A program made the translations under genes and the position numbers. A stretch of 64,000 nucleotides of DNA from Loxodes magnus (taxonomy: Eukaryota; Ciliophora; Karyorelictea; Loxodida; Loxodidae): assembly GCA_946699065.1 (NCBI GenBank), contig CAMPDV010000093.1, forward strand, positions 62,001-126,000, in the 5' to 3' direction. Positions 11,122 to 44,219 of this stretch are shown here, piece after piece. The notes beneath the pieces are model-generated. The model worked only from the letters and a program-made list of their open reading frames with translations, made no database searches and was not told where the DNA came from. Position 1 is the stretch's first letter. Every line of letters starts with the position of its first letter.

Positions 11122-11317
11122 ATTTTGCTATTTTATAAGATTCTTTAATATTTCTTTAATTAGGAGAAATATAATAATATTTGTATAGCAATTAAAAATA
11201 ATTAATAATAGTAATTTTAATATCTAATTATTAGTTTCAATTTAAACTATAAAATAGTGTTTAGAAAAATAATAAAAAATAATAAAATATACTTTTATTA
11301 TATTTTATTAAATTGCT

Positions 11318-13183: not shown

Positions 13184-15403
13184 TCAGAAGTCTTCACTGT
13201 CGTGCTAGTAAATAACTTTGAAATATTCGAAAACTGTTGATATTATTTTTTTATCACTTGATGGTTTAAAAAGTACTTAGTTCATTCCTGATTAGATACA
13301 CTTCTGAATATCGTATTAATCTGCATAAGCTGTGTATCCTAATATTGCTCCCTAATATCCCAACTTTCTTATCTTTTAAGTTGCTTTCTGTCCGTCCATT
13401 ATTGGCATTTCACAATCCATTATTATTGTCACATAATTATTGCAACAATTTTTTTTCATCTGAGTTTATACTTTTTTAACTGCTTCCAGTCCATCTTTTG
13501 CTTCTTCTAATTTGTAATAATTCTTCAGAATATCTGATAATATCATTCTGACTATTTCGGAGTCATCAACTAAGAGAACTTAAGCACATTTGCACTTATA
13601 AGCATAAAGTTTTTGAATATTTTAAAAAGGGATACTTCAAAAGGCACTTTCAGTTTTTGTTTCGATGATTTCGTAACTTTTTGAAGTAATATGGCTACTT
13701 CTTGAATCATCCTATATAAAGAACTAAAATTTAAATATATTAGTTTTTCTCTTTCTCTTTTTAGTTATTTCTTTCTCTCCTATTTATAAAGAAATCTATT
13801 GTGATATATAAAAGTCAATTTCTAAGCCTTTAGTGTGTTTTATCTGACCTTCTTCAAGAAGTTGGAGTTCAGTTCCAATATTAATTGGTTCTATGTCTTC
13901 AGATCTTGAATCAATTATTTTTATTTTAATTATCTGGAATTATCTTTATGTTGAATTTTATTTTGAAAAATATGCGTATATGTTTATAAATCCTTTCTTT
14001 GTATTTATTAAGGAGTTTTGAAGTAAAGTCAGCAATATAAGCTAAATTCTTTTTTAGTCTCCTTAAATAACAGCAGGTATTTAGTTATCTATATCAATGT
14101 TTATTTATAATCCTTTTCTTTTGGCTTAAAAATCTATTATATTTACACATTTTTTTACTATTTTCTAAAGATTAAAGTTTTCCATCTAAACTTCAAATTT
14201 ATGATTCTAGATTTCTGTTATATCTTATATCTAAAGAATTTTATTCATTAGAAATTAAGTTTCACTCTTTATTATTTGTATGGTATTAAAGCAGTTTTCA
14301 ATATCAGATTATTAATCTTAACCTTAGAACTATGGTTAGCTTAAAATTTATTTAAGTCGCTTATAGCAGCTTTGAATAGCTGTAATAGGATGCCTAACTT
14401 CATGATTAAGAGTTCTGAGGAAAAGAGTTTTATATTTATTTTCTGACTTAATTTGTTCTAACTTGATTATATGAGTTATATCTATTAAGTTTAATATCAA
14501 GCACCTCTTTCCAAACCACTCTGTATTATAAGCGCTTATTTCCATAATTTTATCTTCATTTGATTTAATAGCTGAAGCAGGAATTCTTATGTTGTTCATT
14601 TTAATTTTTTCTTGTTAGTATTACTTACACATATAAAAATCTTCCAGATCATTATAAAAATTATCTTTATCTAAATTTGAAAGATTAGTTTTTTGGTATT
14701 GGCTAGCTTCAAGAGTTTTGATAATATCATTATCTTAGAATAATTGTTTTATTTTATTGTTAGAGTAGTGAACTTTGTATAAGTCGAATACAATTATCCC
14801 TGAAGAAGCTGTTTCGTTGATAAATTTTCAATGAAGATTATTCTAAAATAGGCTATTCTACTATTTGAAAGCAAGTTAAGTGTCGAAATAGTTGCATATA
14901 AACAAGAGTCATGTACTGCAAATCATTACAAGGTATGATACAAACATTTCGAAATCTATTTATTGAAGGTAATTATCTCTTCAGGAAATGTAAAACCATA
15001 TAGCTGAATTAAGAATCATTATAACACTCTAAAATATATGCATTTATACTAGTTTACTTGCCATGCTCTGGGCGAATAGGAAATAAATAAAGCCTATTCC
15101 GTGATTACTCATGACCGCTGTAAATACGATACTCTTGATAGTCAATACTATAAAAACCATGGAACCAATCGTTTGAAATTAAAAAGCTAGCTTTTTACTA
15201 GCCATAAAAGTAAGAGAGGAAAGCAATGCACTCCTCACTATTTCTACTAAAAGATTTCCAACCGAAGAAAGGAAAAAAATTTCTTTGAAGATACCTAGCG
15301 AAATAATAGGGAGCAAAGCTAATCAGTAGTACGAGGAATATGATTAAATTCTAAGTTTAATGAACGTCTTGTAGTCTTAGAAAGGTTAATCAAAAGAGTC
15401 CAT
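13184..15403 (-). CDS. Hybrid histidine kinase, central copy
   Basis: ATG at 15403-15401, terminal TGA at 13186-13184, exactly 740 codons with no frameshift when TAA/TAG are Gln and internal TGA is Trp. The N-terminal third has several hydrophobic segments. The middle has a PAS-like stretch beginning NETASSG. HisKA carries LNHEVRHPITAIQ. The C-terminal receiver has VDDSEIIRMIL, the phosphoacceptor in MDCEMP, and KPS. It should receive a phosphoryl group on the receiver Asp in a membrane-bound phosphorelay. Internal TGA codons include one in an I-S-TGA-R-D-N context, where the arm copies have TGG, and one in the S-T-TGA-L-L context, where the copy at 41985-44219 has TGG. It is closest to the 41985-44219 copy, including upstream DNA. 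The ATP-binding G boxes look eroded. Confidence 0.85.
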
Positions 15404-15690
15404 CTTTAATAAAAAGTAAATAAAAAAATAAACTAAAGAGATAAATCGATCAGCTAAATTATCAAAATCTCATAATGCATAATCTTTTGAATTAAATGGT
15501 TCTCTCCTCTAAAAAAGAAGAGCATAATAGATAATAATTTTTATTTTGCTTGAATTTTAGGTACAATTCAAATAACTCTACTGTAATTAAATTTTTATTT
15601 TAATTACTAAGTTAAAGCAACTAAATAAAAATAATGCTAATATATCATGGTTTTTAGATGCAATAATAAATGATTAAATTTATAAATAGT
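15404..15690 (-). promoter_or_regulatory. Conserved upstream block of the central kinase
   Basis: The 280 or so bases upstream of this kinase resemble those upstream of the 44219 start codon. Both contain AACTAAAGAGATAAAT.GATCAGCTA and a later AAGTTAAAGCAA. Conservation outside the reading frame suggests a shared promoter and leader, or simply that the duplicated unit extended this far. Confidence 0.4.
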
Positions 15691-17600
15691 ACAATCAATT
15701 GATAAAAGTGAAATTAAATTAAGTCTTAGCTTAATTTAATTTATTAAATTAAAGTTAAAACATTAGATAATGAAATTAATTTTCATAATAGAAGAAATAT
15801 TAGATAAATTACAAAATCTAACAATTTATAAAGATAAATAAAAAGTGAAATAGATAATTAAGAAATATATTTATCTCATAATTTATTTTTTGATACTATT
15901 GAAATTTTTGTCAAATGAAAAGTTAGAAATATATTAAATTTGAATTATGCAACTTGAAAATTTAAACTGATTTAAATAAAACAAGAAATTATTTAATTAA
16001 TAAAAATATAATATTTTAAATGAAGATTTTGAGCTAAACATTTTGCCATTTTATCACTAAAATTTTTATATTAATTTTTAAATATTTTAAATAAAACTGT
16101 TAATAATTTTTTATTAGTTCCAAGGAAAAAGGTTTAAAAAATTAGGATTTATAATTATTTTATTTTTTAATTAATTTATATTAAATTTGATGCTTAAAAT
16201 AATTTAAACTAATATTTTTAATTTTTAATTTCATAAATTTACATCATAAATATCTGTTCGATTTAAATAAAGTAGAAAAAGTTAAGTTTATAATGTAAAT
16301 TCAGATGTACCAACAAGATTTACTATTTGTTTTTGAATATCTTGAAATATTTTACTTAGAGAGGAATAGCAAATCACCCCTAAATGTTATTATAGTTTTT
16401 GAATAAATTTTTTTTTTAATATATTGTTCTCTGGAAAAATTATTTATGTCTTTTTTTATTATTATTTATTAAATATTTAATATCTTCTTAATAATATAAA
16501 CATATCTAATTTATTTTTAGTAAGAATTTAAATAATTACTAAACAATTAAATTAATTTTAGTAAGATTAAGATTAATGTCACTTACATTTCTTTCATTTT
16601 TATTTTTATTATAAGAACATTTAAGCAACTTCATATTAATTTTAAGAAATTGCCTATATCAATTATGTATATATTGTAGAATGAATAACTTTTAGTCAAA
16701 ACATATTTATAAGTATTAATGAAATTATAGCTAGAGTTATTTCTATTTAACTTTATTTCAAAAATTATTTTTAAATAAGTTAAATTTTATTTTGTATTAA
16801 TATAAACAAATTTTCTCCCTCATTTTATTTAAAAAACAGTTGAAGTTTTAAAATAGACTGAATCTTAATTTCTTATATTATAATTAAATAATATTTGTAT
16901 ATTAAAGCATAAATTAAAATGAAGTAGGAAAGCTGCTGTAAATTAAGATATAATATTTAAATAAGTATAATTAAAAATATAAAATATTTTAAAAGATTTA
17001 TTTACATTAAAATAATTTAAACTAGTTATAATTATAAACATTATTTTTATTTTAATTATCAAGATTTAGTCTTAAGAAAAATAGTATATTCAAAAAATAA
17101 AGAATTTTATATTATAAATTTATTTAATAATGTAAGATTTTTTAATCTATTTATTATATTTTAATATAGAATTTTATGCTATAGCTTCTTAATTTAATTA
17201 AATTAATAATTTATAAAATCTTTTAAGTTAAATAAATTTAAATTATTTCTTTAATCAAGAATTATTTAATAAAAATTAAATTTTAGTTAAAAGTTACATA
17301 TTTTATAAGAATAAATATTTTAATTATTTTATTTATAAATTATCAAGATTAACTATTCATTTTTTCTTTTATTAGTATAGTTCTTATGATCATTCTCATA
17401 CCTCAAATCAATAAATTTTAAGTGGTTTATTATTTCGACTTCCTAATCCAGTCTTTAATAGCTAAAATCTTTAGAATAAATTTTCATTTGTGTTTTTCTA
17501 TTTGTTTATATTTTCTTACATTTTATTTATTATCTTTAACTATTTGTCATAAACTGTTGACTTATTATTAAATTTTAAGTTATCTCAATTATTAATTGAA
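15691..17600. other. AT-rich spacer, nothing recognised
   Basis: About 1.9 kb of very AT-rich sequence with no supported gene, repeat or structured element. Confidence 0.45.
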
Positions 17601-17639
17601 TCAATTTAATTTATATATTTTTCTCATTTTAACGAGTTT

Positions 17640-19120
17640 TTGAAATTAGACAAATAGAAAGCATTAGTGAAATCGACTATGAAATGTTTAAATAAATTTG
17701 AAAATCAAAATTAACTTTTAAAGGTACAAAATCATTTTCTCCTATATTTCTATGCATTTAGAAATAAATTATCTACTAATTTTAACTAAAACAAGGAAAA
17801 TTTTCAGTTCTGCAAAACATAATTAATTAAAAATTTAATTTATTTAAAAGTATAAAACTCAATTATATGTATGTTCTAGGATTTTTGATTCGTAGAGAAT
17901 ATAAGAGATATGGAAACTGAAATTTTGAATTAAGATATTCTACTTCGCTATTATTTTAAATATTTTCGCTCTAAAATTAGAATTATTTATTAACTTAAGT
18001 TGATTTATTTAATCTATTACTGAATAAAATAATTAATTTATTTGGCTATATATTTTCAAATTCATTTATCTCGACATCCTTAAAGATTTTTAAGTTAGCA
18101 ATTATTATTTAATCCTCATTAGCACTAAAAACTATTATATTGCTAGAGATTTTAACAAATTACTTAAATTCCAATTTTATTATTATATTTTTATTTGTTA
18201 AAATTTACTTAGCGTATTTATTACAGTAATAACTCTTAAGATTCATTTTTCATTTATCTATTATAAAACAATTTTAACAATTATTAGTTCTTTATATTTT
18301 CAGTCAAATTGTTGTTTGCTTTTAATTTCTTATTTATAAATTTCTGATATAATTATTAATTTTATATTTAAGTTGAAAGGTTTTAAAAATAATTCATTTC
18401 AAAGTTATTTAGGTAAAAAAATTAATAAAAAAGGCTAAAGGTTAAAAGGAGTTATAGTTACAATAGTTTGCCTTAGCATTCAGTAATTTTTAAAATTTTA
18501 CTCTTGAATAAAGAACAATTAGGACTTCATTAATACACCACCCTTAATTATAGTTTGGACTTTACGGCTGAGTCTAGTTCATCTTAAAGTTATTTTTTAA
18601 AATTGCTTAATTTATGCTATAAACTTTTTTTCTTTATATTTAATTTATTTAAGTTTATCTTATTTAAAATAGATCTTTAATTATATTTTTCTTACTCTTT
18701 TAATAAATTTAGTTTCTTCGCCAGCATCTTTTATAATTAAACTGCTTTTGACATGCATATCAGTGTAAATTTCTTCTTATGCTTTATTGCTAATAATATG
18801 ACTTAGCATTCATAGATATATTTTCTTGTTATCCATTGATTCTTTAAATAATATCTTATTATAGTGTTTATTTGTTTAAAATTATTTTATTTGATACTGA
18901 AACTGAGAAAATTTAAATTAAAGCAATTGAACCTTTTATCAATTTGATCCAGTTATATCCCATTTATAATTGTATATTGTTTATTGCTTCCTCTTTAAAT
19001 GAAAATGAAAGGTCTAGTTCTTCCCGTATATTTCCTAGTATTTATTATAATTCTAAAGTTTTGATTTCTATTGTTTAACTCTTATTATATAAGTTTACTA
19101 TTATTTTATGTACTCATTGT
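17640..19120 (-). CDS. Possible minus-strand gene, unrecognised
   Basis: One frame stays protein-like from about 19080 to 18500. It includes ILGNIREELDLSF, a Cys/His/Trp-bearing stretch (LHWYACQKQF.YKRCWRRN), and MNQTQPQSPNYNQGWC at 18582. A different frame looks best below about 18350 (KISSNIIVFSANEDQII), so an intron or a frameshift is needed. Trp is written with both TGG and TGA. No family was recognised. With almost no stops in any frame this could be chance; a comparison with related sequence is needed to fix the frame. Confidence 0.3.
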
Positions 19121-19149
19121 GCTTAATATTAATGTTAATTCTTATTATA

Positions 19150-19411
19150 TTATATATAAATAAATAGAGAGCAGCAATCCTCCAACTGAGATTTACTTAA
19201 GATCTGGTACCAAGAACTACTCATGGGAGAAGAACCGAACAAGATTCTTAGTAGGATTAAGAGAGAAAACAAAAACTGAAGAGTTATCAAGTAATTTTAT
19301 TGAAAAAAGATGCTTGACACTAGGGTTTCTTAGGGAGTATTCCGATAGCTGCCCTATAGAAGACAAGATTTACAAAGGAATGTTAGCATTGTGGAAGACT
19401 TTGGAAAAAAA
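19150..19411 (+). CDS. Short open stretch ending just before a hairpin
   Basis: A frame from about 19150 encodes about 85 residues of well-mixed composition (for example PPTEIYLRSGTKNYSWEKN and IYKGMLALWKTLEKN). It uses almost no TAA, TAG or TGA, which is unusual for this window. It lacks an ATG, so it may be a 3' exon or a truncated element gene. The hairpin at 19434 follows within 25 bp of the last plausible codon. Confidence 0.35.
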
Positions 19412-19433
19412 TTAACTTTAAAATCTTTATTAA

Positions 19434-19465
19434 AGAGCTGCACTTATTTAGGTGCTATGCGCTCT
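19434..19465 (+). repeat. Hairpin repeat, copy 2
   Basis: AGAGCTGCACTTATTTAGGTGCTATGCGCTCT, a shorter loop version. It lies about 40-70 bp before composite repeat copy 2, so that copy has hairpins on both sides. Confidence 0.65.
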
Positions 19466-19640
19466 TTAATATTATTTATTTAATATTATTATATTTTAAA
19501 ACCGCCATAGTTGTTCGAAGGTCAACAACAAGGTCATCTTCATCAGAGGTTGGGGAAGTTAAGTACCCATAATCGATTTTATGTCTTCCTCTGCTTTGGT
19601 TTGGCCTAGAGACATAATATTCTTAGACCTTCGGCACTGG

Positions 19641-19668
19641 CTTGACTTGGCTTGGCTTGGCTTGGCTT
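19641..19668 (+). repeat. CTTGG pentanucleotide microsatellite
   Basis: Roughly four to five tandem GGCTT/CTTGG units inside composite repeat copy 2. Copy 1 has only one or two units here, which marks slippage. Confidence 0.7.
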
Positions 19669-19968
19669 CGTTTATTTTTAATTCTGGAACGAAAAAGAAA
19701 TAATATTGCGAGCTTCATCAGAGGTGGGGAATTTAAGTACCCATAATTGACACATGTCGTCCTCTGCTTTGGTGATGCAATGAGACACAATCCTGCCATG
19801 TCCTTGGACCTCCAACAAGAAGAAAAGATTACGAGTATTCTTAAATTATATCAGTATTGAACATTTTTATCAGTACTGAATAATTATACCAGTATTGAAC
19901 AAGGTTTATCAGATCTGATAATTTTATCAATAGCAAACATTCTTGTCAGTATGAAACATTTTTTTTAA

Positions 19969-20002
19969 AGAGCTGCGCACCAGCGAGAGTGCTACGCGCT
20001 CT
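19969..20002 (+). repeat. Hairpin repeat, copy 3
   Basis: AGAGCTGCGCACC, loop, GTGCTACGCGCTCT, followed by ATAATCCAATTTATTTATTT. This is the closing hairpin of composite repeat copy 2. Confidence 0.7.
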
Positions 20003-20010
20003 ATAATCCA

Positions 20011-20950: not shown

Positions 20951-20963
20951 AAATATTATATAC

Positions 20964-21558: not shown

Positions 21559-21640
21559 GGAAGATATGTAACTAATAAGAGAAGAATTTCTATTACCTGA
21601 ATGCTTACTTAAAGAAACTTACATATATTGAGATATAGAA

Positions 21641-21673
21641 AGAGCTGCGCACCAACGAGGTGCTACACGCTCT
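21641..21673 (+). repeat. Hairpin repeat, copy 4
   Basis: AGAGCTGCGCACC, loop AACGA, GGTGCTACACGCTCT, followed by ATAATC. Downstream of the plus-strand coding region. Confidence 0.7.
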
Positions 21674-21743
21674 ATAATCAAATTGATTTATTTATTATTT
21701 ATATAAAAAGCTAATGTTTAATGATTAATAATGCAAAGAGATT

Positions 21744-22600: not shown

Positions 22601-22609
22601 TCTGGTTTT

Positions 22610-23020: not shown

Positions 23021-23025
23021 TAAAT

Positions 23026-26598: not shown

Positions 26599-26708
26599 GG
26601 GTTGAAATTTAATTTATTAATTTAGTTATAGAAATGTTAGTTAAATATATATATTTTATTTTATTCTAAATTATAGAAATATTAAAGAATCTTATAAAAT
26701 AGCAAAAT

Positions 26709-27020
26709 GCAGATGTGGAACTCATGGTTTAGTGGGTAAGCAGAGTCGGACTACGTGGAGTCTGCGATCCTGCCATTATCAAGGACGGAGAGTTTTCCCT
26801 GCTCTGTTTCCAGCCTGAGGCGATTCCTCTCTCTTTAACAGCCTCGACACATCACTTCCATGAAGCCCCGATGCCGTTCCCTGACGTGACTAGGACAAAC
26901 CCTGAATTAGTCTGATGACCCCCTCTGCCCACCTCCCAAACTCGCCATCTGCACGTTGTCCCGCCGCCGGCGTAACAGAGTATTGCGACTACTCCGGACA
27001 ATTAAGCAGATTCTGGTAGT
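26709..27020 (+). mobile_element. GC-rich SINE-like element, right-arm copy
   Basis: Mirror copy of 10811-11121. On this strand the order is A-box-like TGGTTTAGTGGGTAAGC near 26735, then a weak B-box-like segment, then an unrelated GC-rich body. It is nearly identical to the left copy. Confidence 0.55.
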
Positions 27021-27024
27021 ACTT

Positions 27025-30000
27025 ATAGAGTTATAAAAGGTATTTACTTTATTAAGGTTTTTAAATATAAAATTATTTAGATTGTATAAAAGGAGAATAA
27101 ATACTACTAATTTAGTATATTGATACTTACTAAATAAGTGTAATTTTAATTAAGCTTTTTATGCTTATAAATAAAATTTAAAGGATACTCAAGTAGCAAA
27201 AGGCAAAATAAAATAAAATAATTTAAAATTTAAGAAAATTAAAAATAAATTTAAGCAATTGATACAATTATAATTATTTGTTAAAATTAATTATTCTAAA
27301 ATTCCATATTAATGATTGATTGTCTTAAAATTAAAAAAAATAAACAATTATTTTTAAACTATCAACATTTTAATATTTATAACCTGAAATTAATTTAATA
27401 AAGCATATTTTTTTCTTGTGTATAAATAATAGATTTTAAATTATATTTGATATATTTAATTACTTGTAAAAGATAATTATCAAATTAATAAAAGTGATGC
27501 TAGATACCCTATGATAAAGTTTTAATTTTATGACTGTCTGGATTTTATAGCTTTTAAATTTTTTTTATTAGTAATTATTTTCCTTGGTTATGAAAGCTAA
27601 AATAGAGAATCTACATTTAATATTTTTTAAAATGTAATTAAGTTTAATAGCAAAATATTAGCTAATCTAGAATTTTATACTTTATATAAATTAAATTTTA
27701 TATAATTCTTCTAAGATTTACAATATAGCTAATTTAATTGTATACATTTCTTTTTCTCCAAATTTTAAATTATTTACAAGCTTATTATTTTCTATTTTTT
27801 AACTGATTATTTTTTATATTTAGTTGTAAGTTTAATTTAATTTGACTAAAGTTTTAAAATATTTATTCTAAGCATGAATTTGCTTTTAATAAAATTAAAG
27901 CATTTGATATTTAACTATTTGATAATAATAAAATAAATCTAAGTTAAAACTAATATAAGTATGATTATACTAATAATGCTTAAAATTAATTCCTTTAGAA
28001 AAATTTAAATTAATTTTAAAATAGTCATAATTTAAATTTTATAACTAAGTGAATGTATTTTATATTACTAAGTATTTTATAGCTTTATTTAGCAAAAATT
28101 ATTCTAACTTTGACAAAAATAAAATAATAAAATAAAGATAAAAAGTAAATGTAAAATAAATATAATATACTATTATTTGATTTTTTGCTTTGTAGTCATT
28201 TTATATATTAGGAAAGCTTAGGATCTTAAACGAATTAAACATTTACAGTTTATTATATATAGTTTATTATATATAGTTTATTATATATATATTTTTAATA
28301 TTTTTCTCTATTTTATATAACTTTTATCTAAATATTCCATTCTTATTAAATTCTTAATTTTTGTGGTATATCATATTTTAAAATTACACCTTATTTTTCT
28401 CTTTTGTCATACATCAAAACAATTAATTTAATTATACTATTTGCCTCTTTTAAATAAATAAGAGATCTGATTTGCTTACAAAATTGAAATAATATTCTCT
28501 TAACCAAAGAAAGTAAGGAAAAGAATCTTTAAAATTAGAAAGAAGTTTTATATAGCAAGGTATTTTTAAGATTGATATTAGTAAATAATAAATATTTCTT
28601 TAATCATATTTGTTCTTAGAATTTATGTATTAAATTATTTTAAATTTATCTTAAAATTAAAAATAAACTTATTTTCTTTAATTGAGCACCATATATCTAT
28701 ATCAGCTTTTATATAATTTATAAAAACTTAAATCTATAATAATTAAAGATACCTCTATAACTAAATTTTAGCTATTTTAAAGATATATTTATAAAAATTT
28801 AATATAATTACTAGTATAAGCTTAAAAAGGAAATCTTTTGATATAAATCTGATTTTTTAATATTATGAAGGTATTTCTTTATATTTAAAACTAATAAAAT
28901 ATAAAGCTTTTTAATTAATTAAAAATAAATATCTTAACTATAGCTATTAAAAACTAAGAATCGATATCTCATAAATATTTTTACTAGCTAAAATAAATAA
29001 TAGAATATATTATTATTTTAAGATTTTAACTCCTTAGTTATACTTTAAGATACCATTTTCATTTCACAGAACAAAAAAATAAAAAATATAAATTATTAAA
29101 TTCATAAAATATAATAAGTGTTAAATTTCTATTTGTATAAAAGATATTATATTTAGAAGATTTAATTAAAAATAACTTATAAAGTTCTAAGATTCTAAAT
29201 TTTTATTTTTTCTTTTTAGAAAACTAAGTATATATCTTAAGCTCTTTTCTTCGCTAGTTATCTTAACTAATTATTTGTTCAATTCATTTTATAGCAATCC
29301 TGATATAACTTAAGGATTAGAGAAAATTATAATGTTTCGATAAGTATTTTTCTATATTCAATTTATTTGAAAAATATTCCTCTCTAGGTAAAAAAATACA
29401 AATAAGTATAGCAAAAAAAGCTTCTAGAATGGATATTTTGTAAAATAAACATTGATTTAATTTTTAATTTTTTAGATAATAAATTAAAAATCTCAAGGTC
29501 ATTTCGCCTTTCTCAATCTCATTGTTATTCTTTTATTAATTTTATTCCATGTAAGTAATCTCTATACAAATGATTTGAGATTTCTATATTTTTATCCTAA
29601 TTAATTATTAAATAAATAAAATTGTTAAACTTTAGCAACCAATATCTAGGAATAAATTTATTTAACTTAGAAAATATAGCATTATTTAAGTTTATAGTTA
29701 GAGGATTCAATATGTTTTTATTTACCTTCTTTTTATGATTTAATTAATAAATTTATTATTCCTTTTTATTGTTATAACTATGAAATAATTTTCTTTTTGA
29801 TAAATATTTATTAAAGTATATAAATAAAATTATTTTACTAAAAGTTTAAATTAATTTAGGTCTTTTATTAAATATTAAAATTTTAATTCCAAATAATTTG
29901 TTACCTTTTGATTATTTTAATATTGATATAATCTCCTTAAAATCTTATTTGCCAATATTTATATAATATGCCTTCCTTATTCTAAAGTATATCTTCATAG

Positions 30001-31860
30001 TAGATTGATATTCATTTTTCCTTCATTTTAGCTTCATACTTCTATAAAACTACATATTTACACAGAATAAAAACTAATTTTATTTTAGAGTGATATGATT
30101 AAATACTTACTCTTTTTATTTATATCCTTACAATCACTTTTTTATTTACATTTTATTATACTTTAAACGATATCGTAATGTGAATTTTAATAATACCAAT
30201 TAAATTTAAGATATTATCTAATACCACTTTAAGGGCTCAAATTGCAATTATAATTTTAGATAATTTTGTGTTTATATCAAACTCTTCTCTATTCTTATTT
30301 TATTAATCAACATTAATTCAGATTTAGATAAATAAGTCATAAGGAATATGTCTTTAGAAGTTTTAGGATATTTTTAAATTAAAAACTTTCAAGTTTCGTT
30401 TGAAAGAAGATTAACGAAATTTTAAATTAAAAATGAAATACTTGCAATCTCATTTAATTATTTGATTTAAAATAATAAATTACACTTTCAAGTTAACTTC
30501 CTAATTAACAATTTGATGTATACCAAAATATTAAGAAAAGCACTAAATACTTAATTCCAGTTTAATAGTTATAAAGCTTATTATAATTGAAGAAATTTGC
30601 TTTTAGTATACTTTATTTTATCTTCTTAATAATTATTTTTTAAAATGCTTTTAATTTAAATTTTCTTTAGTTTCTTCTGCTTTATACTTATTGATAAATG
30701 AGAAATCTCATAATCTAAAGATATTCTAAAATTAAGGAATTATTAGTGGATTATAAATACTTTCATGTTTATAAGAATTTAATTTACTTTAAAGACAAAA
30801 CTAAAATTTAAATCAAATGTGTTTATAATTCCAAATGCCTTTGCTTTAAGAATACTATAAACTCCTTAAGAAAACTTCTAATTTTTACAAAAGAAAATAT
30901 AAATCAGCAATCTATCTTAAAATTATTTGCTTTGAGGTTGAAGTTAAATATTGGGTATCATAGAAATATAATGTCATTTATAAGATTTTATAAAATGAAT
31001 AAGTTGGGGAATAAGTTAATTATTATTATTTAGTTATTTAGAGCTTAAGCTTATATCCTTAAGTCTAATATTAGACTCCCTCTCCAACTTTAAAATGAAT
31101 CTGGTTTAAATATAGCGCAAATATAATGAAATTAAATAAAATGAATAGTAAAAATCTTTTTAAACCAATCATAACAAATAATGATTTATAACTACATATA
31201 AAATAATTAAGCTTAAATAAATAAATAAATGTAATAAAATCATATAAATTAATGTGCTTTATAGTTAAGACCTTATAATTATTTATTGCTATCAATTATT
31301 TTTTGCTAAATATATTTATTTTATTACCACATCATTTAACCAATTTAAATTATGCAGAACAACAAAAAATCCTTCAGAAATTTTTTCACTCGATACACTA
31401 GTTTTTTAAACTAATTCTATACAGAATTACTAAACCTTTTAATTGACTGAAGTAGAGATGTCTTTTAGTTAATTTAAAAAATATAAAACTTAATATCTTG
31501 TCAGGTAAGGCTATTATTTAATATATCTAAGACACTTAAATTTAATATATGATTCATAACTATTGAAATTTGAATAAACTACAAGAATTTATATAATCAA
31601 TTTAGCTTCTTTATATAATTAAATTTATTTATTCTTGCAATGCTTTCATTTAGAAAAACTAAGAAATATTTACAGAGGCATAAATATAAGAAGAAAATAT
31701 TTTAATTTAAAATTTAAAACAAAATTGCTTAAGATAAAAATTAGATATATAAACCTGAATATTACAGGAGAGAAATTAATTAAAATTAATAATTTTTTGT
31801 ATAATTTCATTAAGGAATTATACTCTAACTTATTTAATTAATTTTTTCAAAATAATAAAG
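27025..31860. other. AT-rich arm DNA, no gene supported
   Basis: Mirror of 5970-10810. Short open stretches occur on both strands (for example near 31071-31295 and 31635-31841) but have no ATG-to-TGA frame with a domain, and are best explained as chance in stop-poor AT-rich DNA. Confidence 0.5.
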
Positions 31861-31865
31861 ATAAG

Positions 31866-34094
31866 ATGGATGCTAATTATATGGACTTTGTTAATTATAA
31901 TGAGTTTATTAAACTTAGAATCTAGACGTATTCTTCACGCTATTGACTTATTCTTTTTCCTATCATTACAATGGGGATTTTTAAAGAAATTATATGGAAC
32001 ACTTCGCAAACTGATCTTGTAATGGAAATATGAAAAAGTCTAATTATATCTTTGCTTACTTTTATGGCTAGCAAAAAGCTAGCCTTTCGCTTTTAAACTA
32101 TTGGGTCATTTGTGTTTTTAGTATTGACGGTAAAAGGAATATTTTTCACAGCAGTCTTGAAGAAATATGAAATAGGATTCATTTATTTGTTGTTTGCTTA
32201 AAGCCTAGCAAATAAATTAGTTTAGAAGTATATATTTTAGTGCCTTATCCTTTTCGCTAATTCCATTGTATGACTCTATATTACTTGGAAAGAAAATTAC
32301 TTACAATAATAAGATTTCGAAATGTTTATGTCCTATTTAGTAATGATTTGTGTTAAATGACTTTTAACCACTTGCAACTACTGCGACACTTAGCTAGCTT
32401 TCAAATAATGGAATAACCTTGTCTAAACTAATAAGCACTAAAAATTTATCAACGAAACAGCATCTTCAGGAATAATTGTATTCAACTTTTACGAAATTTA
32501 CTACTCTAACAATAAAATAAAATAGTTATTCTAAAATATGTCAAACAGTGAAATAATCCAAGCTCTTGAAGAAAGCTAATATTAAAAACCTAAATTTACT
32601 AATAAAAAATAAGATAAGTTTTATAATGATCTAGAAGACTTTTATATGTGTAAGTAATACTAACAAGAAAAAATTAAAACGAGTGACATAAGAATTCCTG
32701 CTTCAGCTATTGGATCTGACGAAGATAAAATTATGGAAATAAGCGCTTATAATACAGAATGGTATGGAAAGAGGTGTTTGATATTAAACTTAATAGATAT
32801 AACTCATATAATCAAGTTTGAGCAAATTAAGTCAGAAAATAAATATAAAACTCTTTTCCTCAGAACTCTTAATCATGAAGTTAGACATCCTATTACAGCT
32901 ATCCAAAGCTGCTATTAGCGACTTAAATAAATTTTAAGCTAACCATAGTTCTAAGGTTAAGATTAATAATCAGATATTGAAAATTGTAGCAGCATACTTA
33001 AAATAATAAAGAGTGAAACTTAATTTCTAATGAATAAAATTCTTTAGATATAAGATATAACAGAAATATAAAATCATAAATTTGAAGTTTAGATGGAAAA
33101 CTTTAATCTTTAGAAAATAGTAAAAAAGTGTGCTAATATAATAGACTTTTAAGCCAAAAGAAAAGGGTTGCAAATAAATATTGATATAGATAACTAAATA
33201 CCTGCTATTATTTAAGGAGATTAAAAAAGAATACAAGTTGTATTGATATCGTTACTTCAAAATTCAGTTATCAGTACAAAAAAAGGATTTATCAACATAT
33301 GTGCATATTTTTCAAAATAAAAGTCAACATAAAGATAATTCCAGATAATTAAAATGAAAGTAGTTAATTCAAGATATGAAGATATAGAACAAATTAATAT
33401 TGGAGCTTAGATTTAATTTCTAGGAGAAGGTTAGATAAAACACGCTAAAGGCTTAGAAATTGACTTTTATATATCACAATAAATTTCTTTATAAATAGGA
33501 GAGAAAGAAATAACTAAAAAATAAAAATAAAATACCAATATATTTAAATTTTAGTTCTTTATATAGGATGACTTAAGAAGTAGTAATATTACTTCAAAAA
33601 GTTACGAAATCATCGAAACACAAACTGAAAGTGCCTTTTGAAGCATCCCGTTTTAAAACATTCAAAAGCTTTATGCTTTTAAATGCAAATGTGCTTAAGT
33701 TCTCTTAGTTGATGATTCCGAAATAATCAGAATGATTTTATCAGATATTCTGAAGAATTATTACAAAATAGAAGAAGCAAAAGATGGGCAAGAAGCAGTT
33801 AATAAAGTATAAGCTCAAATGAAAAAAAAATGTTGCAATAATTATGTTACCATAATAATGGATTGTGAAATGCCGATAATGGATGGATAGAAAGCAACTT
33901 AATAAATAAGATAAATGGGATATTAAGGAGCAATATTAGGATACACAGCTTATGCAGACTAATACGATATTCAGAAATGTATCTAATCAGGAATGAATTA
34001 AGTACTATTTAAGCCATCAAGCGACAAAAAAATAATATCAACAGTTTTCGAATTCTTCAAAGTTAGTTATAGTCATGAAGGTGTTGATATATGA
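31866..34094 (+). CDS. Hybrid histidine kinase, right-arm copy
   Basis: ATG 31866, terminal TGA 34092-34094, exactly 743 codons. Residues 25-200 are hydrophobic (several membrane segments). A PAS-like region follows, beginning NETASSG. HisKA has His337 within LNHEVRHPIT. The ATPase region has an N-box-like LLQNS but a D-x-G-x-G position that reads VNSR. The receiver has Asp616/617 (VDDS), phosphoacceptor Asp666 (MDCEMP), Thr694 and Lys716 (KPSS). TAA/TAG are Gln throughout. TGA occurs at five internal positions, two of which are TGG in paralogues. Likely role: membrane sensor or phosphorelay component acting through its receiver. It is the intact twin of the disrupted left-arm gene. Confidence 0.87.
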
Positions 34095-35850
34095 GATATC
34101 AAAAAATTAGTAAAAACAAAATAATTTTATTCTAATTATTTCTTAATATAAAGACATTGCTTTTAGTTTAAAATGGTAAAATAAATTTAAAAAAGGATAT
34201 ATTAAATTTTTTTTGATAAAATAATTAATAGTTAATAAATTAAGAGTAATAATTTTATTTTAAAAATAGTTCTTAAATTCTTTAAAAATAATTTTAACTT
34301 AAGATTTATTTTAGGATTAAAGTAAGTCAAATCAAATATTCTTTAGTTTTAGGGAAGTAAATTGATTGATGCATTAATTCTTTATTTTATCAGAAAGCTT
34401 TTATTTAAATGTAAGCATTAAAGTTTTTTCAGTGAATTTCGTCAAAACAGATATAGATATACTTAAAATTTATTTAATCTTATTTTTTATTCTTAGAACT
34501 TCTAATAAATATCTATTTTCTTAGCTTATTTAGATAAATTACATGATTAAAGAAGTTTAGATAAAAGTATTTTGCCAAACTAAAATTTATTATGATATTT
34601 CTTATTCATTTAAAGACCTAAATTATTGAGCTTTAATTTAATAAAGGCCTAAATCTTTAATTTAGTAATTACTGAGACACATAAATACTAATAATTTAAG
34701 ACATTTAGCAAGAAAAGGATATTAAGAATTCTCTTCTTTTTATGTATTACAAGGTTTAGCAAATTTTGAAAAAAATTATTTTTATCTTAAATTTATCAAT
34801 TTTAGAAATAAATTTAGCTTAGATATTTCAATTAAATTTTAATGCTTATATAATTAATAGAAACCCCTTTGAAGTAAAAACTTTTGCTTTAGATGTTCTA
34901 AATAGACTGTATATAATAATAAGTTTAGTATATAAATTTAGTAGTTAATTTAGAATAAAAGCCTTAGTTTATTATTAATTATGAATTAAAATAATTTAAA
35001 TTACTTTGAAACTATATTTGTAATAAAATATATTAGATCTTATTAAATTTAGATTCTCACATATCTTTAAATAAAATTTATCTTCAATCAAATTATCGAG
35101 AATTGTAAAAATACAGAGTACAGATCAGACTTTGCAAATTTATTTAATTTTAGCCTCTTTTCACGCTGAATTATCAGCAATAATTTTACCAGAAAATATA
35201 ATGTTTTCATTTATTAAAATAAAAAAGATGCAAATCTTTGATTTGCTTATAGATAAATTTAACCATAATACATTGAAATATTCTTTGTTTTAGACTTTTT
35301 AAGAAATAAATTTAAAATTTGATATCTCAAAGCAGCTGATAACTCACTCTATCAAACTTGTTTGTTTAAATTAATTATTTTTAATTAAATCATAATCTTA
35401 TTAATAATTTCCATGTTTTAACTTACCAATCTTAGAAGAGATTTTACTTATAAAAGTTTATAAACCATATCTTTCATTTTATATGATAAAAATTACCTTA
35501 TTTACAATATTTATTTTGACAAAGCGATAAATAAGTCTTTATCTAATAAATTGCTTATAAATAATTTTTCAATTTATATAGATATTTTACCTTTATTAAG
35601 AAGATTTTGATAAACAAAATAATAAAAGTTGACTATACATCTAATATACTCTATATAAATATTACTTTTTAGATTTTGTATCTTTTAGTTTATATATTAA
35701 GGTTGTCTTAGTTTATTTTATAATTAATGTATACTTAATGATTTTTCTATTTATTAATTTGAAGTAGATAGTTAGATATACATTTAATTTAAACTAATAC
35801 GTTTTATTTTATTAGTATACATAAATAAAAAAAAGAAAATCAGGCTTCAG
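34095..35850. other. AT-rich arm DNA, no gene seen
   Basis: Mirror of 1640-3400. Nothing further recognised. Confidence 0.5.
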
Positions 35851-36689
35851 TAATAGAATTTTTTGCAGCTCCAAGGAGATAGAAGTCCAGAACACAGCAG
35901 AAAACAACGAACTAATTAGCATAAACTTTTTAAAGTAATATAAATAAATAAAAAAGCTTATTATTTTAAAATAGTTCTTATATGAGCTTTCTTAATTAAA
36001 TTTACTTAACCTTATATAATTTTTTTGTTTAAACTGTATAATATATTTCATTTTTTATTTTATATTTTTACATATCGAAGAATTTTTGTGATGTAAAAGT
36101 TTAGAAATTAAATGTTGATACTCTATTTGGTAAGCATAAATTAAATTGATATATTCAAAATGCTTCCACAAAAAATAAAAATAACTATGTAAATTAAATT
36201 GTTATAATATGTAAGATTCTCTTAGAAAAAAATTAATTTATCAAGAATTTAAGATTTACTAAAATTTTTGAAATTAGATAAAATCTAAAAATAAAGATAT
36301 TTATAAATCAAAATATTTATTTATGGGTAACTTAATAGTAATGAAGAAAAAAGAAAATTAGAATTAATAAAATAATATAACTTAAAATTATATTTAGATA
36401 AATAAATCTAACTTAACTTCATAAAATTAAGATATTCACAATAATTAAAAATTTTATATGATTTTTAAATCAATTTATTATTTATTTAAAACTATTAAAA
36501 AAATTAAAATTTGTAATAATTAAATATATAAATTTACATTAAATCCTTAATAAATTTACTTATGAAAATTAACCAAAAATTATATTGCTTGAAATTTTTG
36601 TTTTTTTTATTTGAAAATATTTTTATAAAGAGTACGGAAAATTTCTATTAGAAAACCTTATAGAAAAAAATAGAATCAGAATAAGCTTT

Positions 36690-37440: not shown

Positions 37441-37449
37441 GTCGAATTA

Positions 37450-40400
37450 AAAAAAATTCAAATTAAAAATTTTGTATATTTTATGATAAATATTACAGTT
37501 AAAAAAATAAAAAATTTTAATCTGATTCTTTTAGAGAGGGATTAAATTTTATACAATACTCTAAGAAAAATCTGTCTATATCTTCAGCCTTTAAATAACT
37601 TAAATTATTATACATTATTTATTAAGAAAATTAAATTTTTTGTTTTATAAGTAAAACTTTTGAAACTAGTTCTAATTATTTATTTATTTTTAATATTTTT
37701 TATCACTATTTTACCTCAATCTTAAACAGATAAAGATATTGCTTTTATTTAACACCAAATTCTTAGTCAATTTCTTAATTATTTTCTTTCTTGTGATAAT
37801 TAATCTTAATATCTTCCAATACTTGACTATTTAATTATTAATAAGCAAATATCTCTAATTTTAAACTATATTAATTTGTAATAATAATTAAAGGAAAATA
37901 AAATTTCTTTTTAATTCTTTAAATTTTGAACGAAACATTTTTCTTTAAATTTATCTTACAAATATTTTATAAACTCCTCTAAGTCTAAAATTTATATTAT
38001 AATTTTATCAATGAAGCGTATCTAACTTTATTTTACTAAGTTTAATAATATTATAATTAATTAAAAATAATATAGCATACTAATTTATTCTAATAATAGT
38101 AAAAAAGCGCAAATACACAATTTCTTAGATTCTAGTTTTAAATTGAAACAATTTACATAGATAAGGAAAAAAGATTTATTGATTCATTTCATTTTAAGAA
38201 CTTTTTTTTAATTTTAAATAGCAATAAATTAGATAAATATTATAATAACTATAATAAAGATAAATATAAAATGCTTTTTTAAACTGATTTTAATAGTAAT
38301 AAAAATATAGTTATAAATAATTAATTGAAATACTTTATAAAATTGTTAATCAAGATTAAACTAAAATTTTTCACTATTCCATAACTCTTAAAAATTACTT
38401 TAAACTAATATTCATTATACTAAATATTTTTCTTTATTTGTCTCTTTTTTAAATGATTAAATTTAATTAATTTTATAAAAAAGAAATTTTATAATGAATT
38501 TCTAGATTAGATAAATGTATAAATTTAAAAAATGAAGATGGAATTAAATAATATTAAATACATATAAATAAATAGAAATGAAATTAAAATAAATGGAAAC
38601 TAATAAATTTAAATAATAATGATAAATATAATGTTAATCAGTATATTAAAGTATAAAATAAAAATATATTAATTTAAGTTAATATCTTATAAAGCATAAA
38701 ATAATTTAATTTAGATTAATTAAGTTATAAAATGTATCTATAAATATTTAATTTAAAAATGGAAGGATATTAAATTTAATTTAATTGTTTGATAAACTTT
38801 ATAAAATTTTTTTCAGATTTAAATAATTTTAATTTATTAATATAGCTATTATTTTAAATTATGATGCTTTTGATATTTATATAATCTTAGAAATTGACTA
38901 AAGTAATTTTATAAAAATAAGGCTATTTTGAATATTAATAATCTATTGACATCCCCCACTCTCTTCTTACCTATTTATTATATTTAAGATAAATAATAAT
39001 TTTATAATTGATATTTTTTAATTTATTTAGTTAAACAATTTTAATAATTATTAAGATAAAATAGATTTAGGTTTAAATATTACATCAAATAAAAATATTT
39101 GATTAATCTTTAGATTTTTTAATTAAATTTAAGACAAATTTAAAAAATTAAATTTAATATTAAATACCCTTATTATTCAAAAATTGGTTAAAATTTAGCA
39201 TCCCATTTGAATTAAAAGTTTAGTTATATTTTCAATATTATTACTAAAGATAGAAATAATTATTAATATTTTATAATAATATTTTAAATTAATACCCATT
39301 TCTATTTTTGAATACCTAATTATTTATAAAAAATTAATTAATTAGGATATCTAGATTTAATGAAGATAAAAATTATTTTCTGAAAATAAATATTAAGGAA
39401 TATTATTCAAATCTCAAATTTAAACTTAAATCTATTTTCTATATTTATTTTATCTAGTTCAGTTACTATTTTTATTTTTTAATCACTTTATAATTTTAAA
39501 TTAGATTTAAATCAAAATTAATTCTCATTCTGTTAAAATATTTAAATATATATAATATCATTATTAATAAGATTGTTAAACTAAGATTAAATAATTTAAT
39601 TTCTTCACACTAAGATATTATAATTAATTATTTTCTCTTTATCTCTTAATAATCCTGCTAATAAGTTAAATATAATTACTTTAACCTATTATTTTATATT
39701 TAAATATATAATAATATTTATTATTATGCTCTTTACATTTATTTTAACCTAATTTATATTTTTAATATGCCTTTTTTAGAAAATATTTATTTATTTGTTT
39801 CTAAATTTTAGCTTTCAAAATAAAATCTAAAAATTTAAAAATTATTAAGATCAAAAAGTGCAAAATCTATTTTATATTCAAACTAAAATTTTTAAAATTA
39901 TAACTTAAAATAGCTAAAAATAATATATAATATAGATAAAATTAAAAAAACAGATAATACGGGTTTTCTACGAATGATTGTTTATAATTATTTTCTAAGA
40001 TATAAAATTATCTTGTAAAATTATCTAATTTATATTAGATTAAAATTTAAAAATAATTAAAATAAAATAGTTTTATTATGTATTTTTCATAATATAAAGT
40101 CAGATAAAATAAAAATTTGATATGCAAAATAAAATAATTAAAGAAATAGAAATTTTAATTACATATGTTTTACATCTGATAAATATTAAATGCAGGCTAA
40201 TTTAGTCAAAAAATTTTAAAAGTGTTGTTAATAACATCGGAATTATGAATATGATAATGATTAAAGCCTTTATAACTAAAATAATATAAAATATAAAAAA
40301 GATTTAGAAAATTAAAATGATTGATTATAAATAGAATTATATTAATTTGCTTAAAATAAAATTAATAATTTAAGAAGTAATTATAGTATAAATATAAAAA

Positions 40401-41980
40401 ACAAAATAACTTAAGATATTATTTAAATTTTATATATTATTATATAATATATTTAGATTCAGCAAATGCTAAAGCTAGGTAATAAAAAATAAAAAATGAA
40501 AAATAGAAATAAAAATATGAAAATATAAAGAAATATGATTTAAATAAAAATGAAGTAAAAAAATTATAAGAAAATGAATTAAAAATAAAAAATTTAATTA
40601 AATATTTAATTATAATGAACAAAATAATAAATTGATTCTAAAATAATAAATTGATTCTAAAATATTTAATTGGAATTAAATCATTGTATGATTTTTTTTT
40701 CAACTTAATAATGAAATTTTAGATAGTAAAATTTTATTTAGTATATTTAATAAATAAATTCTTTAATTAATAATTTAAGGTTAGATAAAATTGATATGAT
40801 AGATATAAAATTGTAGAAATACATTATTAATTAAATGTTTTAGAATGAGAGTAAGCTGTGAATATTTATTCTCCCCTACATCAAATATAACTATCTGCTT
40901 TCTTATTTTCTTCCTATATAAATGAAAAATCATAAAATAATCACATTTCTTGCTAAGAAATAAAATTAGAACATTTTTAATAAATAATATCATAAATCAT
41001 AAACATTTTTCTAAAAACTAATTCAGATAGTAATTAAAGATAAGCATGAATTAGTATTCCAAAACTTTAACTAAGAAACCTTCGTAATATAATTAAATTA
41101 ATTAATAAATAGTTATTTTGCTCGAAATTGATAACAAAATAAAATATTGCTATATTCTAAAATTTTTAAAAAACTTAAAAGAAATTGAAGCATTATTTTA
41201 TGAAATAAAAAAATTAAAATCATTATGAAAGCCAAGTAAATATTTTTTACGCAAAGCTAATAATTTAAAATAAAAGTTTCAAGAAAGAATTAACCTTGAA
41301 AGTCTTAGTTTATAAATCTACAAATAAATTTACATCTTTTAAGCTATGATATAATAAAATATTTTTGTAAAGTATGCAGTCTTTGTTTGTGTTTTGAAAG
41401 GATTAATAAACTTAAAATTAGATATTTAATAGAGTTTATGTTTGAATTAAAAAATAAAATATTTATTTAATTTATTGATTGTTTATATTAGTTATATGAT
41501 TAATTAAAGAACTCATTATATATACAATTAAATTTTCAAACTTTAGGAAGAATCCAATTTTATAAAGCTAAGAGAAAAATTTAGGGAAATGAAACTATTA
41601 ATTTTTCTGAGTCTTTACTTAAGAGTATAAAATGATAAGAAAATTTTAAAGATTTAAGCTATCATTCTTATGAGTAAATTAAATTTTTAATATTCAAATT
41701 AGTTAAAAAAATCTTTTAGATAAAAATTTCATTTAGAATAAATAAAAATGATAATCTCAGTTCTCTTTTAAAAAAATTAATTTAAAGCTAATAAAGCTTT
41801 GCATGTCTTAAGGAATTCTCTTCTTTCATATTTAAACAAAATGCTTTATTTTAAAGATTGATTATTATAATTTTAGTTTTTAAATTTGTACTTATATTTT
41901 AATTTTAAGTATTTTAAAAAGAAATTCATTAATGAAGATTCTTTTAGATTGATATTAGTTTTTTTAATTTAATTTTTTGA
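37450..41980. other. AT-rich region, nothing recognised
   Basis: About 4.5 kb with very low GC. No supported gene. A stretch near 40440-40620 is simple A/T-rich repeat-like sequence. Confidence 0.45.
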
Positions 41981-41984
41981 TATC

Positions 41985-44219
41985 TCATATATCATCGCTA
42001 TCTTGATAATAACTAACTTTGAAATATTCGAAAACTGTTGATATTATTTTTTGATTACTTGATGGCTTAAACAGTACTTAATTCATTCCTGATTAGATAC
42101 ATTTCTGAATATCGTATTAGTCTGCATAAGCTGTGTATCCTAATATTGCTCCTTAATATCCCATTTATCTTATTTATTAAGTTGCTTTCTATCCATCCAT
42201 TATCGGCATTTCACAATCCATTATTATGGTAACATAATTATTGCAACATTTTTTTTTCATTTGAGCTTATACTTTATTAACTGCTTCTTGTCCATCTTTA
42301 GCTTCTTCTATTTTGTAATAATTCTTCAGAATATCTGATAATATCATTCTGATTATTTCGGAGTCATCAACTAAGAGAACTTAAGCACATTTGCACTTAT
42401 AAGTACATAATTTTTGAATGTTTTAAAATGGAATACTTCATATAGCACTCTCAGTTTGTGTTTCTATGATTTCGTAACTTCTGCTTAAATTTTGTATGCT
42501 ATATAAATCAGAGTCTTTTACGAAAAATTAGAAAATAAAAGCATTAGTATTGTTACTAAACTTCTTAATAATTTTTCTTGCTCCTATTTGTTAAGAAATC
42601 TACTAGGATATGTAAAAATCAATTTCCAAGCCTTTAGCGTGATTAAGCTGGCCATCCTCAAAACTTTAAAGAAAACCTGAAGTATTTATTTGAAGTTGAT
42701 CAATATCCTCAGATCTTGAATCAGCAACTTTTATTTTTATAAGGTTTTCTTATTTTTAGGTTTCTTTCTAATTTTTTTTTGAGAAATATGCATATATGTT
42801 TATAAATCCTTGCTTTGTATTTATCAAGGAATTTTGAAGTAGCGATAGCAACACAAGCTGTACTCTTTTTTAGTCTCCTTCAATAACAGCAGGTATTTAG
42901 TTATCTATGTCAATATTTATTTGCAATCCTTTTCTTTTGGCTTAAAACTCTACAAGATTTACACATTTTTTTAAAGTTTTTTAAAGACTAAATTTTTCCA
43001 TCTAAATTTAAAACTTATGATTTTAGATTTCAGTTATATCTTATATCTAAAGAATTTTATTAAGAAGAAATTATGTTTCACTTTTAATTATTTATAGAGT
43101 ATTAAAGCAATTTTCAATATTAGATTGCTGCTCAAGGTTTTAAAATTGTGGTTTGCTTAAAATTGATTTAATTCGTTTATAACAGCTTTGAATAGCTGTA
43201 ATAGGATGCCTAACTTCATGATTAAGTGATCTGAGGAAAAGAGTTTTATATTTATTTTCTGATTTAATTTGCTCAAACTTGATTATATGAGTTATGTCTA
43301 TCATGTTTAATATTAATGATTTCTTTCCGAACCACTCTGTATTATAAGCGCTTATTTCCACAATTTTATCTTCATCTGACCCAACGGCTTATCCAGGAAT
43401 TCTTATATTACTCATTTTAATTTTTTCATGTTAGCTTTGCTTGCACATAAAAAAATCTATAAGATCATCATAAAAATTATCTTGGTCTAAAATTGCGAAT
43501 TTGATTTTTTCGTATTGGCTAACTTCCAGAGCTTTGATAATATCACTATCTTAGAATATTTTTTTTATTTTATCATTAGAGTAATATACTTTGTAGAAAT
43601 CGAATACAATAATTCCTGAAGATGCTGTCTCGTTTATAAATTTTCAATGAAGACTATTTTAAAATAGTTTGTTCTACTACTTGAAAGCTAATTTAGTGTC
43701 ACAATAGTTGCATGTAGATAAAAGCCAAGTACTACAAATCATTACGAGATATGATACAAACATTTCGAAATCTATTTATTGAAGGTAATTATCTCTTCAG
43801 GAAATGTAAAGCCATATAGCTGAATTAAGAACCATTATAACACTCTAAAATATATGCATTTATACTAGTTTACTTGCCATGCTCTGGGCAAATAAGAAAT
43901 AAATAAAGCCTATTCCATGATTGCTCATGACTACTGTAAATGCGATACTCTTGATAGTCAACACTAAAAAAACCATAGAGCCAATCGTTTGAAATTAAAA
44001 AGCGAGCTTTTTACTAGCCATAAAAGTAAGAGAGGAAAGCAATGTACTCCTCACTATTTCTACTAAAAGATTTCCAACCGAGGAAAGGTAAAAGATTTCT
44101 TTGAGGATGCCTAACCAAATAATAGGGAGCAAAGCTAATCAGTAGTACGAGGAATATGACTAAATTCTATGCTTAATGAACTTCTTGTAGTCTATGCAAG
44201 TCTAATCATAAGTTTCCAT
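41985..44219 (-). CDS. Hybrid histidine kinase, copy outside the inverted repeat
   Basis: ATG at 44219-44217, terminal TGA at 41987-41985, exactly 745 codons. Same architecture as the other copies: membrane segments, PAS-like NETASSG region, HisKA with LNHEVRHPITAIQ, degenerate ATPase, and receiver with VDDSEIIRMIL, MDCEMP and KPS. TGA is used inside in the contexts S-TGA-R-D-N, S-Y-Y-TGA-L and A-I-TGA-S-I-P, while TGG is used in A-I-W-L-Y and S-T-W-L-L, where other copies have TGA. The ATPase segment reads VADSRSEDI where VxDxGxGI is expected. It is most like the central copy. Confidence 0.87.

Follow-up and report, generated by a model that had tools for sequence, protein, structure and literature searches.

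Evidence for the ambiguous karyorelict genetic code, with TGA as tryptophan and as stop, around kinase-like paralogues of Loxodes magnus

Kinase-like paralogues and other open reading frames of the window

The window, which is the whole 64,000-nucleotide stretch of Loxodes magnus DNA analysed here, contains four kinase-like paralogues, one of them carrying an insertion:

About 3419–5969, minus strand: kinase-like paralogue A, the disrupted left-arm copy; its start was taken from the alignment
3669–3991, minus strand: insertion within copy A, a dispersed repeat of ~300 bp with 44% GC and a duplicated target site of ~20 nt
13184–15403, minus strand: kinase-like paralogue B, 739 aa plus terminal TGA; internal TGA at its own codons 27, 141, 165, 192 and 589
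31866–34094, plus strand: kinase-like paralogue C, the right-arm copy, with 742 aa plus terminal TGA; internal TGA at its own codons 27, 56, 136, 165 and 592
41985–44219, minus strand: kinase-like paralogue D, 744 aa plus terminal TGA; internal TGA at its own codons 27, 141, 192 and 594

Copies B, C and D run from ATG to TGA in a single frame of 740, 743 and 745 codons (TGA included) and hold 5, 5 and 4 internal TGAs, respectively, as against 11–27 TGAs in each of their other frames. A preliminary description, made from the sequence alone, had all four kinases keeping one frame from ATG to TGA; this holds for the three intact copies but not for copy A, which is broken by a 1-nt deletion and by the 323-nt insertion at 3669–3991 with its repeated target site. 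Further copies of the inserted repeat lie in L058, L002, L076 and L074. When the three intact copies are examined as hybrid histidine kinases with Pfam, the receiver domain is strong in all (Response_reg, PF00072; E 3.1e-20 in B, 3e-21 in C and 2.9e-21 in D) and HisKA (PF00512) is weak in two, with E values of 0.0062 in B and 0.0031 in C that fall under its cut-off. Copy D has no HisKA match at E ≤ 0.01, and none of the three has a HATPase_c match at E ≤ 0.01.

Four further reading frames bear on the use of TGA:

49040–49723, minus strand: small ORF ending at TGA; putative, coding status unproven
52364–52597, plus strand: small ORF ending at TGA; putative, coding status unproven
56916–57227, plus strand: small ORF ending at TGA; putative, coding status unproven
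62539–64000, plus strand: receptor-like ORF continuing past the end of the window, with five TGA and five TGG codons inside it

The five TGAs of the receptor-like ORF (62968, 62971, 63259, 63400 and 63910) agree exactly with the number given earlier, and its match to ANF_receptor (PF01094, E 0.003) lies below the curated cut-off. The small ORFs do end at TGA, as had been described, but their standing as genes has no Pfam support (no match at E ≤ 1), and they are therefore weak evidence on stops. A codon-usage scan of the window picks out only the kinase stretches at its threshold.

Exchange of TGA and TGG among paralogues and across the genome

In the four-copy alignment TGA and TGG replace one another at codons 27, 136, 141 and 165 (numbered as in copy D), in keeping with the interchange noted in the preliminary description, although the site that it placed near residue 36 is residue 27. 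Codon 27 differs only in the broken copy A. Of the five TGA sites that vary among the intact copies, three alternate with TGG; when copy A is included, four of six do. The remaining variation shows that not every TGA site keeps tryptophan: codon 192 is TGA or TAA, as had been reported for one site, and codon 56 is split evenly across the four copies between TGA and GTG (Val), a variation absent from the earlier account. As for TAA and TAG, of the 78 ordered pairs with TAA in one of copies B, C and D, 41 have TAG, CAA or CAG in the other; of the 44 with TAG, 31 have TAA, CAA or CAG.

Under the ordinary ciliate code (table 6) the internal TGAs would be the stops of decayed paralogues, a reading to which the truly broken copy A and the commonness of decay in duplicated genes lend some colour. 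It is set against the pattern of substitution: dN/dS is 0.12–0.24 over five codon ranges (the whole gene and four parts) and 0.13–0.19 after the last internal TGA. These values, near 0.2, show that purifying selection persists beyond the internal TGAs. Together with the third codon positions, which carry the most substitutions in all six kinase pairs, and with the scarcity of TGA in the coding frame of the intact copies, they take the pattern beyond what chance would give. Genome-wide searches of the assembly (705,730,643 bp) point the same way. The conserved kinase tryptophan site S-D-[V/I/M]-W-S-x-G, searched as SD[V/I/M]-TGN-S-x-G, gives 24 matches, in which the TGN codon is TGA in 18, TGG in 5, TGT in 1 and TGC in none; the reversed pattern gives 0. 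Across 136 scored protein-kinase domains, TGA lies inside 91, TAG in 116 and TAA in 131. The pseudogene-stop reading is rejected on the selection kept past the TGAs and on the genome-wide tryptophan motif, and we consider it extremely improbable. The same evidence, with the paralogue exchange, contradicts a TGA that is always stop and upholds the earlier statement that this is not the Tetrahymena code.

Gene ends, release factors and tRNA genes

All five anchored gene ends (three kinases and two eRF1 genes, that is, two families) are TGA, with TAA or TAG at none. The kinase terminal TGA is homologous among the copies; the common TGA end described earlier is seen in the three intact ones, and a 5-nt indel in copy B, which is not a multiple of three, lies three bases past it. 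No internal TGA falls within the final 150 codons of copies B, C and D. Both eRF1 genes end at TGA near the end of eRF1 in solved structures. That TGA might be tryptophan only, with the true stops elsewhere, takes its appeal from how clear the internal TGA-to-tryptophan reading is, but the homologous kinase stop followed at once by a non-triplet indel, together with the eRF1 ends, leaves it scarcely any probability.

Each eRF1 gene has nine TAA/TAG codons opposite glutamines of aligned eRF1, including Gln185 (human numbering) of the GGQ motif, which is TAA in both; a further 11 (L031) and 10 (L032) stand opposite other residues. Neither gene has an in-frame TGA, so eRF1 itself is uninformative on TGA as tryptophan. 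The position of human Ser70 is Ala in both. A third eRF1_2 match (C2, L033) is an eRF1-family protein that lacks GGQ in the stretch read and for that reason is perhaps Pelota-like.

The preliminary description had called for suppressor-type tRNA-Gln genes and for a tRNA-Trp with anticodon UCA. Candidates for the former are abundant: tRNA genes with anticodons UUA and CUA, presumably glutamine tRNAs. No cytosolic gene of the latter kind was found in genome pattern searches, with ARAGORN or among the tRNA-Trp relatives read, a search that intron-containing genes could escape. The abundant tRNA-Trp has a CCA anticodon and a 4-bp anticodon stem and occurs as a gene array; the C148 copies (4 of 34 matches read) have a T.C mismatch at the top anticodon-stem pair, and some copies of the tRNA keep the usual stem of 5 bp.

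A cognate tRNA-Trp(UCA), rather than the 4-bp-stem tRNA-Trp(CCA), could instead read the internal TGAs. Cognate tRNAs are the commonest solution for reassigned stops according to PMC13092985, and UCA-like matches somewhat exceed their reversed controls, with 33 against 22 in a first search and 242 against 189 in a second. This reading is nevertheless unlikely. The CTTCAGAT...T-loop pattern has 2 genome matches against 21 in the reversed control, ARAGORN finds no UCA tRNA in 30 loci from the 33 matches, and no UCA anticodon occurs in the 10 tRNA-Trp relatives read of 40 scored (from 131 candidates, 91 unscored). Several candidates were discarded individually. A repeated UCA-like family (C444, C558, C561, C594, C921, C1144) resembles a tRNA 3′ fragment, and neither Infernal (E ≤ 0.1, five loci) nor ARAGORN with introns allowed finds a tRNA in it. 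Among the matches listed from the 242-match search, one family is tRNA-Val(CAC) (one member examined) and another yields no tRNA (two members examined). Of the two CTTCAGAT...T-loop matches, the one examined, on C227 (in L054), gives no tRNA with ARAGORN; the other lies on C97.

The karyorelict code and its relation to known systems

Because paralogue comparison, the genome-wide kinase tryptophan site, eRF1 and the UUA and CUA tRNA genes agree, the code here is read from sequence as one in which TGA is tryptophan inside genes and stop at gene ends, and TAA and TAG are glutamine; the value of any single TGA is one that we infer. With great confidence, we take the best explanation of the whole to be that the window is karyorelict ciliate nuclear DNA, almost certainly L. 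magnus macronuclear, using the ambiguous karyorelict code (NCBI table 27). This code is already known, having been described for karyorelict ciliates, with table 27 in print for L. magnus.

In the mechanism envisaged, TAA and TAG would be decoded as glutamine by dedicated tRNAs with anticodons UUA and CUA. Internal TGA would most likely be read as tryptophan through near-cognate decoding by the abundant 4-bp-stem tRNA-Trp(CCA), as published studies of tRNAs of this kind suggest. On the published model, TGA would terminate only close to the 3′ end of the mRNA, where eRF1 would win out over the tRNA, and the Ala that replaces human Ser70 may tilt the competition toward readthrough. Joined together, the tRNA and eRF1 halves would leave TGA weak as a stop everywhere but close to the ends of mRNAs, in a system lacking any cognate UCA tRNA, a combination to which we give an even chance. 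Other authors have already described the 4-bp-stem tRNA-Trp(CCA), and with it the tRNA half, in Loxodes; the eRF1 half was not found in the literature searched and is possibly less noticed.

The karyorelict code strikingly breaks the rule of one codon, one meaning, as is already known, and gene models in the window must set each TGA as tryptophan or stop by its position. The likely decoding parts, namely the 4-bp-stem tRNA-Trp array, the abundant tRNAs for TAA and TAG, and an eRF1 whose position 70 is Ala, are now located in the genome and open to testing.

No difference was found from the karyorelict code as published for L. magnus (PMC11441545) and for Parduczia sp. (PMC4967479), in which UAA/UAG are Gln and UGA is Trp within genes but stop where they end. 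Published work gives L. magnus table 27 with UGA the only stop, its stop meaning depending on nearness to the poly(A) tail. Two further marks of that code, short 3′-UTRs and UGA depletion before stops, call for transcripts to be seen, and the last 150 kinase codons without TGA may offer a glimpse of the depletion. The Condylostoma-type code (table 28), in which each of the three codons serves as sense and as stop, shares TGA as Trp or stop and TAA/TAG as Gln, and PMC4967479 likewise records no detectable tRNA-Trp(UCA) in C. magnum. That source has Condylostoma stopping at UAA and UAG as well, whereas the five anchored ends here, a small sample from two families, are all TGA, and published L. 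magnus work has UGA as the sole stop; a Condylostoma-type code is therefore very unlikely. "TGA only" would be too much to claim from five such ends and draws on that published work. The preliminary description had called the code karyorelict or Condylostoma-type; its codon meanings stand, and the code that fits better is that of the karyorelicts Parduczia and Loxodes, with TGA as stop, rather than that of Condylostoma. The nonstop code of Blastocrithidia (PMC12153298) has in common UGA as Trp, a 4-bp-stem tRNA-Trp(CCA) and a substitution at human eRF1 position 70, but there UAR is Glu, the stop is UAA and the substituted residue is Gly, whereas here UAR is Gln, the stop is UGA and the residue is Ala. 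The broken first anticodon-stem pair of the 4-bp-stem tRNA-Trp(CCA) system of Blastocrithidia and Condylostoma is present here also, in the C148 copies.

Kinase paralogues and their reading frames

The preliminary description, which had read TGA as both tryptophan and stop and TAA/TAG as glutamine, held that four kinase paralogues keep a single frame.

Copy A: about 3419-5969, minus strand, with a 1-nt deletion and a 323-nt insertion
Copy B: 13184-15403, minus strand, ATG to TGA in a single frame
Copy C: 31866-34094, plus strand, ATG to TGA in a single frame
Copy D: 41985-44219, minus strand, ATG to TGA in a single frame

This is so for copies B, C and D; copy A is not intact, its frame being shifted by the deletion and its 3′ part split by the insertion (3669-3991), a dispersed repeat accompanied by a target-site duplication (about 20 nt). 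Assignment to the kinases is probable, based on a strong match to a receiver domain and a weak one to HisKA. Copies B, C and D have 740, 743 and 745 codons including the terminal TGA, with 5, 5 and 4 internal TGA, 2, 4 and 4 TGG, and 49, 59 and 43 TAA/TAG codons, respectively.

TGA and TGG do interchange at aligned sites (codons 27, 136, 141 and 165 in the numbering of copy D), as had been described; TGG at codon 27 is confined to the broken copy A, which leaves three exchanges of the four that distinguish intact copies. TGA alternates with GTG at codon 56 and, as already described, with TAA at codon 192, and all copies have it at codon 594. When B, C and D are compared in ordered pairs, an internal TGA that differs between copies faces TGG six times, GTG twice and TAA twice.

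Among the kinases, dN/dS (Nei-Gojobori, translated with TAA/TAG as glutamine and TGA as tryptophan) is 0.20-0.21 over the whole gene, 0.12-0.17 for codons 28-165, 0.18-0.24 for codons 166-593 and 193-593, and 0.13-0.19 for codons 595-744, beyond the last internal TGA. These low values downstream of internal TGAs argue that selection on the protein persists past them. Copy B differs from the others by a 5-nt gap three bases past the terminal TGA (codon 745), whereas all gaps inside the intact copies are multiples of three, a pattern that fits translation ending at this shared TGA.

Copy B has a mosaic structure: over codons 28-165 it is close to D (dS 0.24, versus 1.65 to C), and over codons 166-593 it is nearer C (dS 0.37, versus 0.67 to D), a pattern suggestive of gene conversion. 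A large, imperfect inverted repeat has arms of roughly 9 kb each (about 1566-11174 and 26656-35908), 78-99% complementary in pieces and separated by about 15 kb; one arm holds copy A and the other copy C. Direct repeats at 11325-11718 and 19511-19910, 8.2 kb apart and 87-98% identical, end in a degenerate tandem motif resembling TATCAGTATTGA. The repeat inserted in copy A appears SINE-like; it is about 300 bp long with 44% GC, against 24% in positions 1-4000, and has further copies at loci L058 (98%), L002, L076 and L074 (79-80%).

Family support is absent or weak for the small genes at 49040, 52364 and 56916 and for the receptor-like ORF (from 62539), which has a weak ANF_receptor match and, in its downstream half, no Pfam match at E <= 0.01. 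This long ORF continues past the window end into locus L105, with many further TGA.

Genome-wide codon use and candidate tRNAs

Genome-wide searches covered 705,730,643 bp (the window being C93:62001-126000). Among the 136 protein-kinase domains scored of 5592 candidates, TGA occurs inside 91 (157 in all), TAG inside 116 (323) and TAA inside 131 (603). The conserved protein-kinase motif S-D-[V/I/M]-W-S-x-G was searched with TGN at the tryptophan position; its 24 matches, judged by motif alone, have TGA in 18, TGG in 5, TGT in 1 and TGC in 0 (13, 5, 1 and 0 as distinct sequences), and the reversed pattern used as a control has no match in the genome.

An anticodon-UUA tRNA pattern has 241 genome matches against 164 for its control, and one identical tRNA core occurs in 72 of the 100 matches listed of these 241. 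Of five places examined, the three that contain the core all fold as tRNAs (four copies); the two that lack it do not. The anticodon-CUA pattern has 79 matches against 3, and the one examined folds. ARAGORN labels the UUA and CUA tRNAs 'Stop' and 'Pyl'. Genes for tRNAs with UUA and CUA anticodons are present; that they are the suppressor-type tRNA-Gln genes sought we infer from codon use and from their likeness to tRNA-Gln.

A search for a tRNA-Trp with anticodon UCA had also been proposed, and none was found by genome pattern searches with ARAGORN checks of loci taken from the matches. With a single tRNA-Trp copy as query, 34 of the 40 relatives scored (of 131 candidates) lie on contig C148, 33 of them in a tandem array with steps of mostly 241-242 bp; the four examined of these 34 all carry CCA and have the first anticodon-stem pair broken, leaving 4 bp. 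The six relatives elsewhere carry CCA (four), CAT (one) and CCT (one). Three of the CCA tRNAs (L045, L094, L096) have a 5-bp anticodon stem as drawn by ARAGORN, and the fourth (L095) is a tRNA by Infernal, undrawn by ARAGORN. PMC13092985 and PMC12005148 attribute a Loxodes tRNA with a 4-bp stem to Swart et al. 2024 and Swart et al. 2023, respectively.

Several kinds of tRNA gene occur in tandem arrays (L098 on C148, L101 on C214, and on C130, C78, C103 and C158), with units of about 241, 275, 588, 527 and 1750 bp. Loci L045 and L094-L097 (C110, C7736) share nearly one tRNA-like body with anticodons CCA, CAT and CCT, some with mispaired T stems, and are possibly decayed or chimeric copies.

Release factor and published codes

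Two eRF1 genes lie about 35 kb apart on contig C196.

L031, 1075-2385: eRF1 gene, 436 aa, ends in TGA
L032, 1075-2385: eRF1 gene, 436 aa, ends in TGA

The human eRF1 of structure 1dt9, which supplies the residue numbering, aligns over residues 9-430 (E 3.4e-158). Gln185 of the GGQ motif is encoded by TAA in both genes; TAA and TAG together stand opposite glutamine at 9 codons in each and opposite other residues at 11 in L031 and 10 in L032. Neither coding region contains an in-frame TGA, and in both a second in-frame TGA follows three codons past the terminal one. Anchored gene ends are TGA in five of five cases, the three intact kinases and two eRF1 genes representing two gene families only.

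Substitutions in eRF1 include Thr58 to Arg, Ser60 to Gln, Ser70 to Ala and Tyr125 to Phe. No mention of Loxodes eRF1 position 70 was found in a limited literature search, and it may therefore still be published. In Blastocrithidia this position is Gly, associated with UGA readthrough in PMC12153298, in contrast to the Ala found here.

The genetic code seen in the window is already known, being in print in PMC11441545 and PMC4967479. PMC11441545 describes a 706 Mbp MAC assembly of Loxodes magnus and assigns it code table 27, with UGA as the sole stop and as tryptophan at a sufficient distance from the poly(A) tail, a median 3′-UTR of 41 bp, and depletion of UGA and UAA over roughly the last 20 codons ahead of the stop; PMC4967479 sets out the codes of Parduczia and Condylostoma together with the context model.
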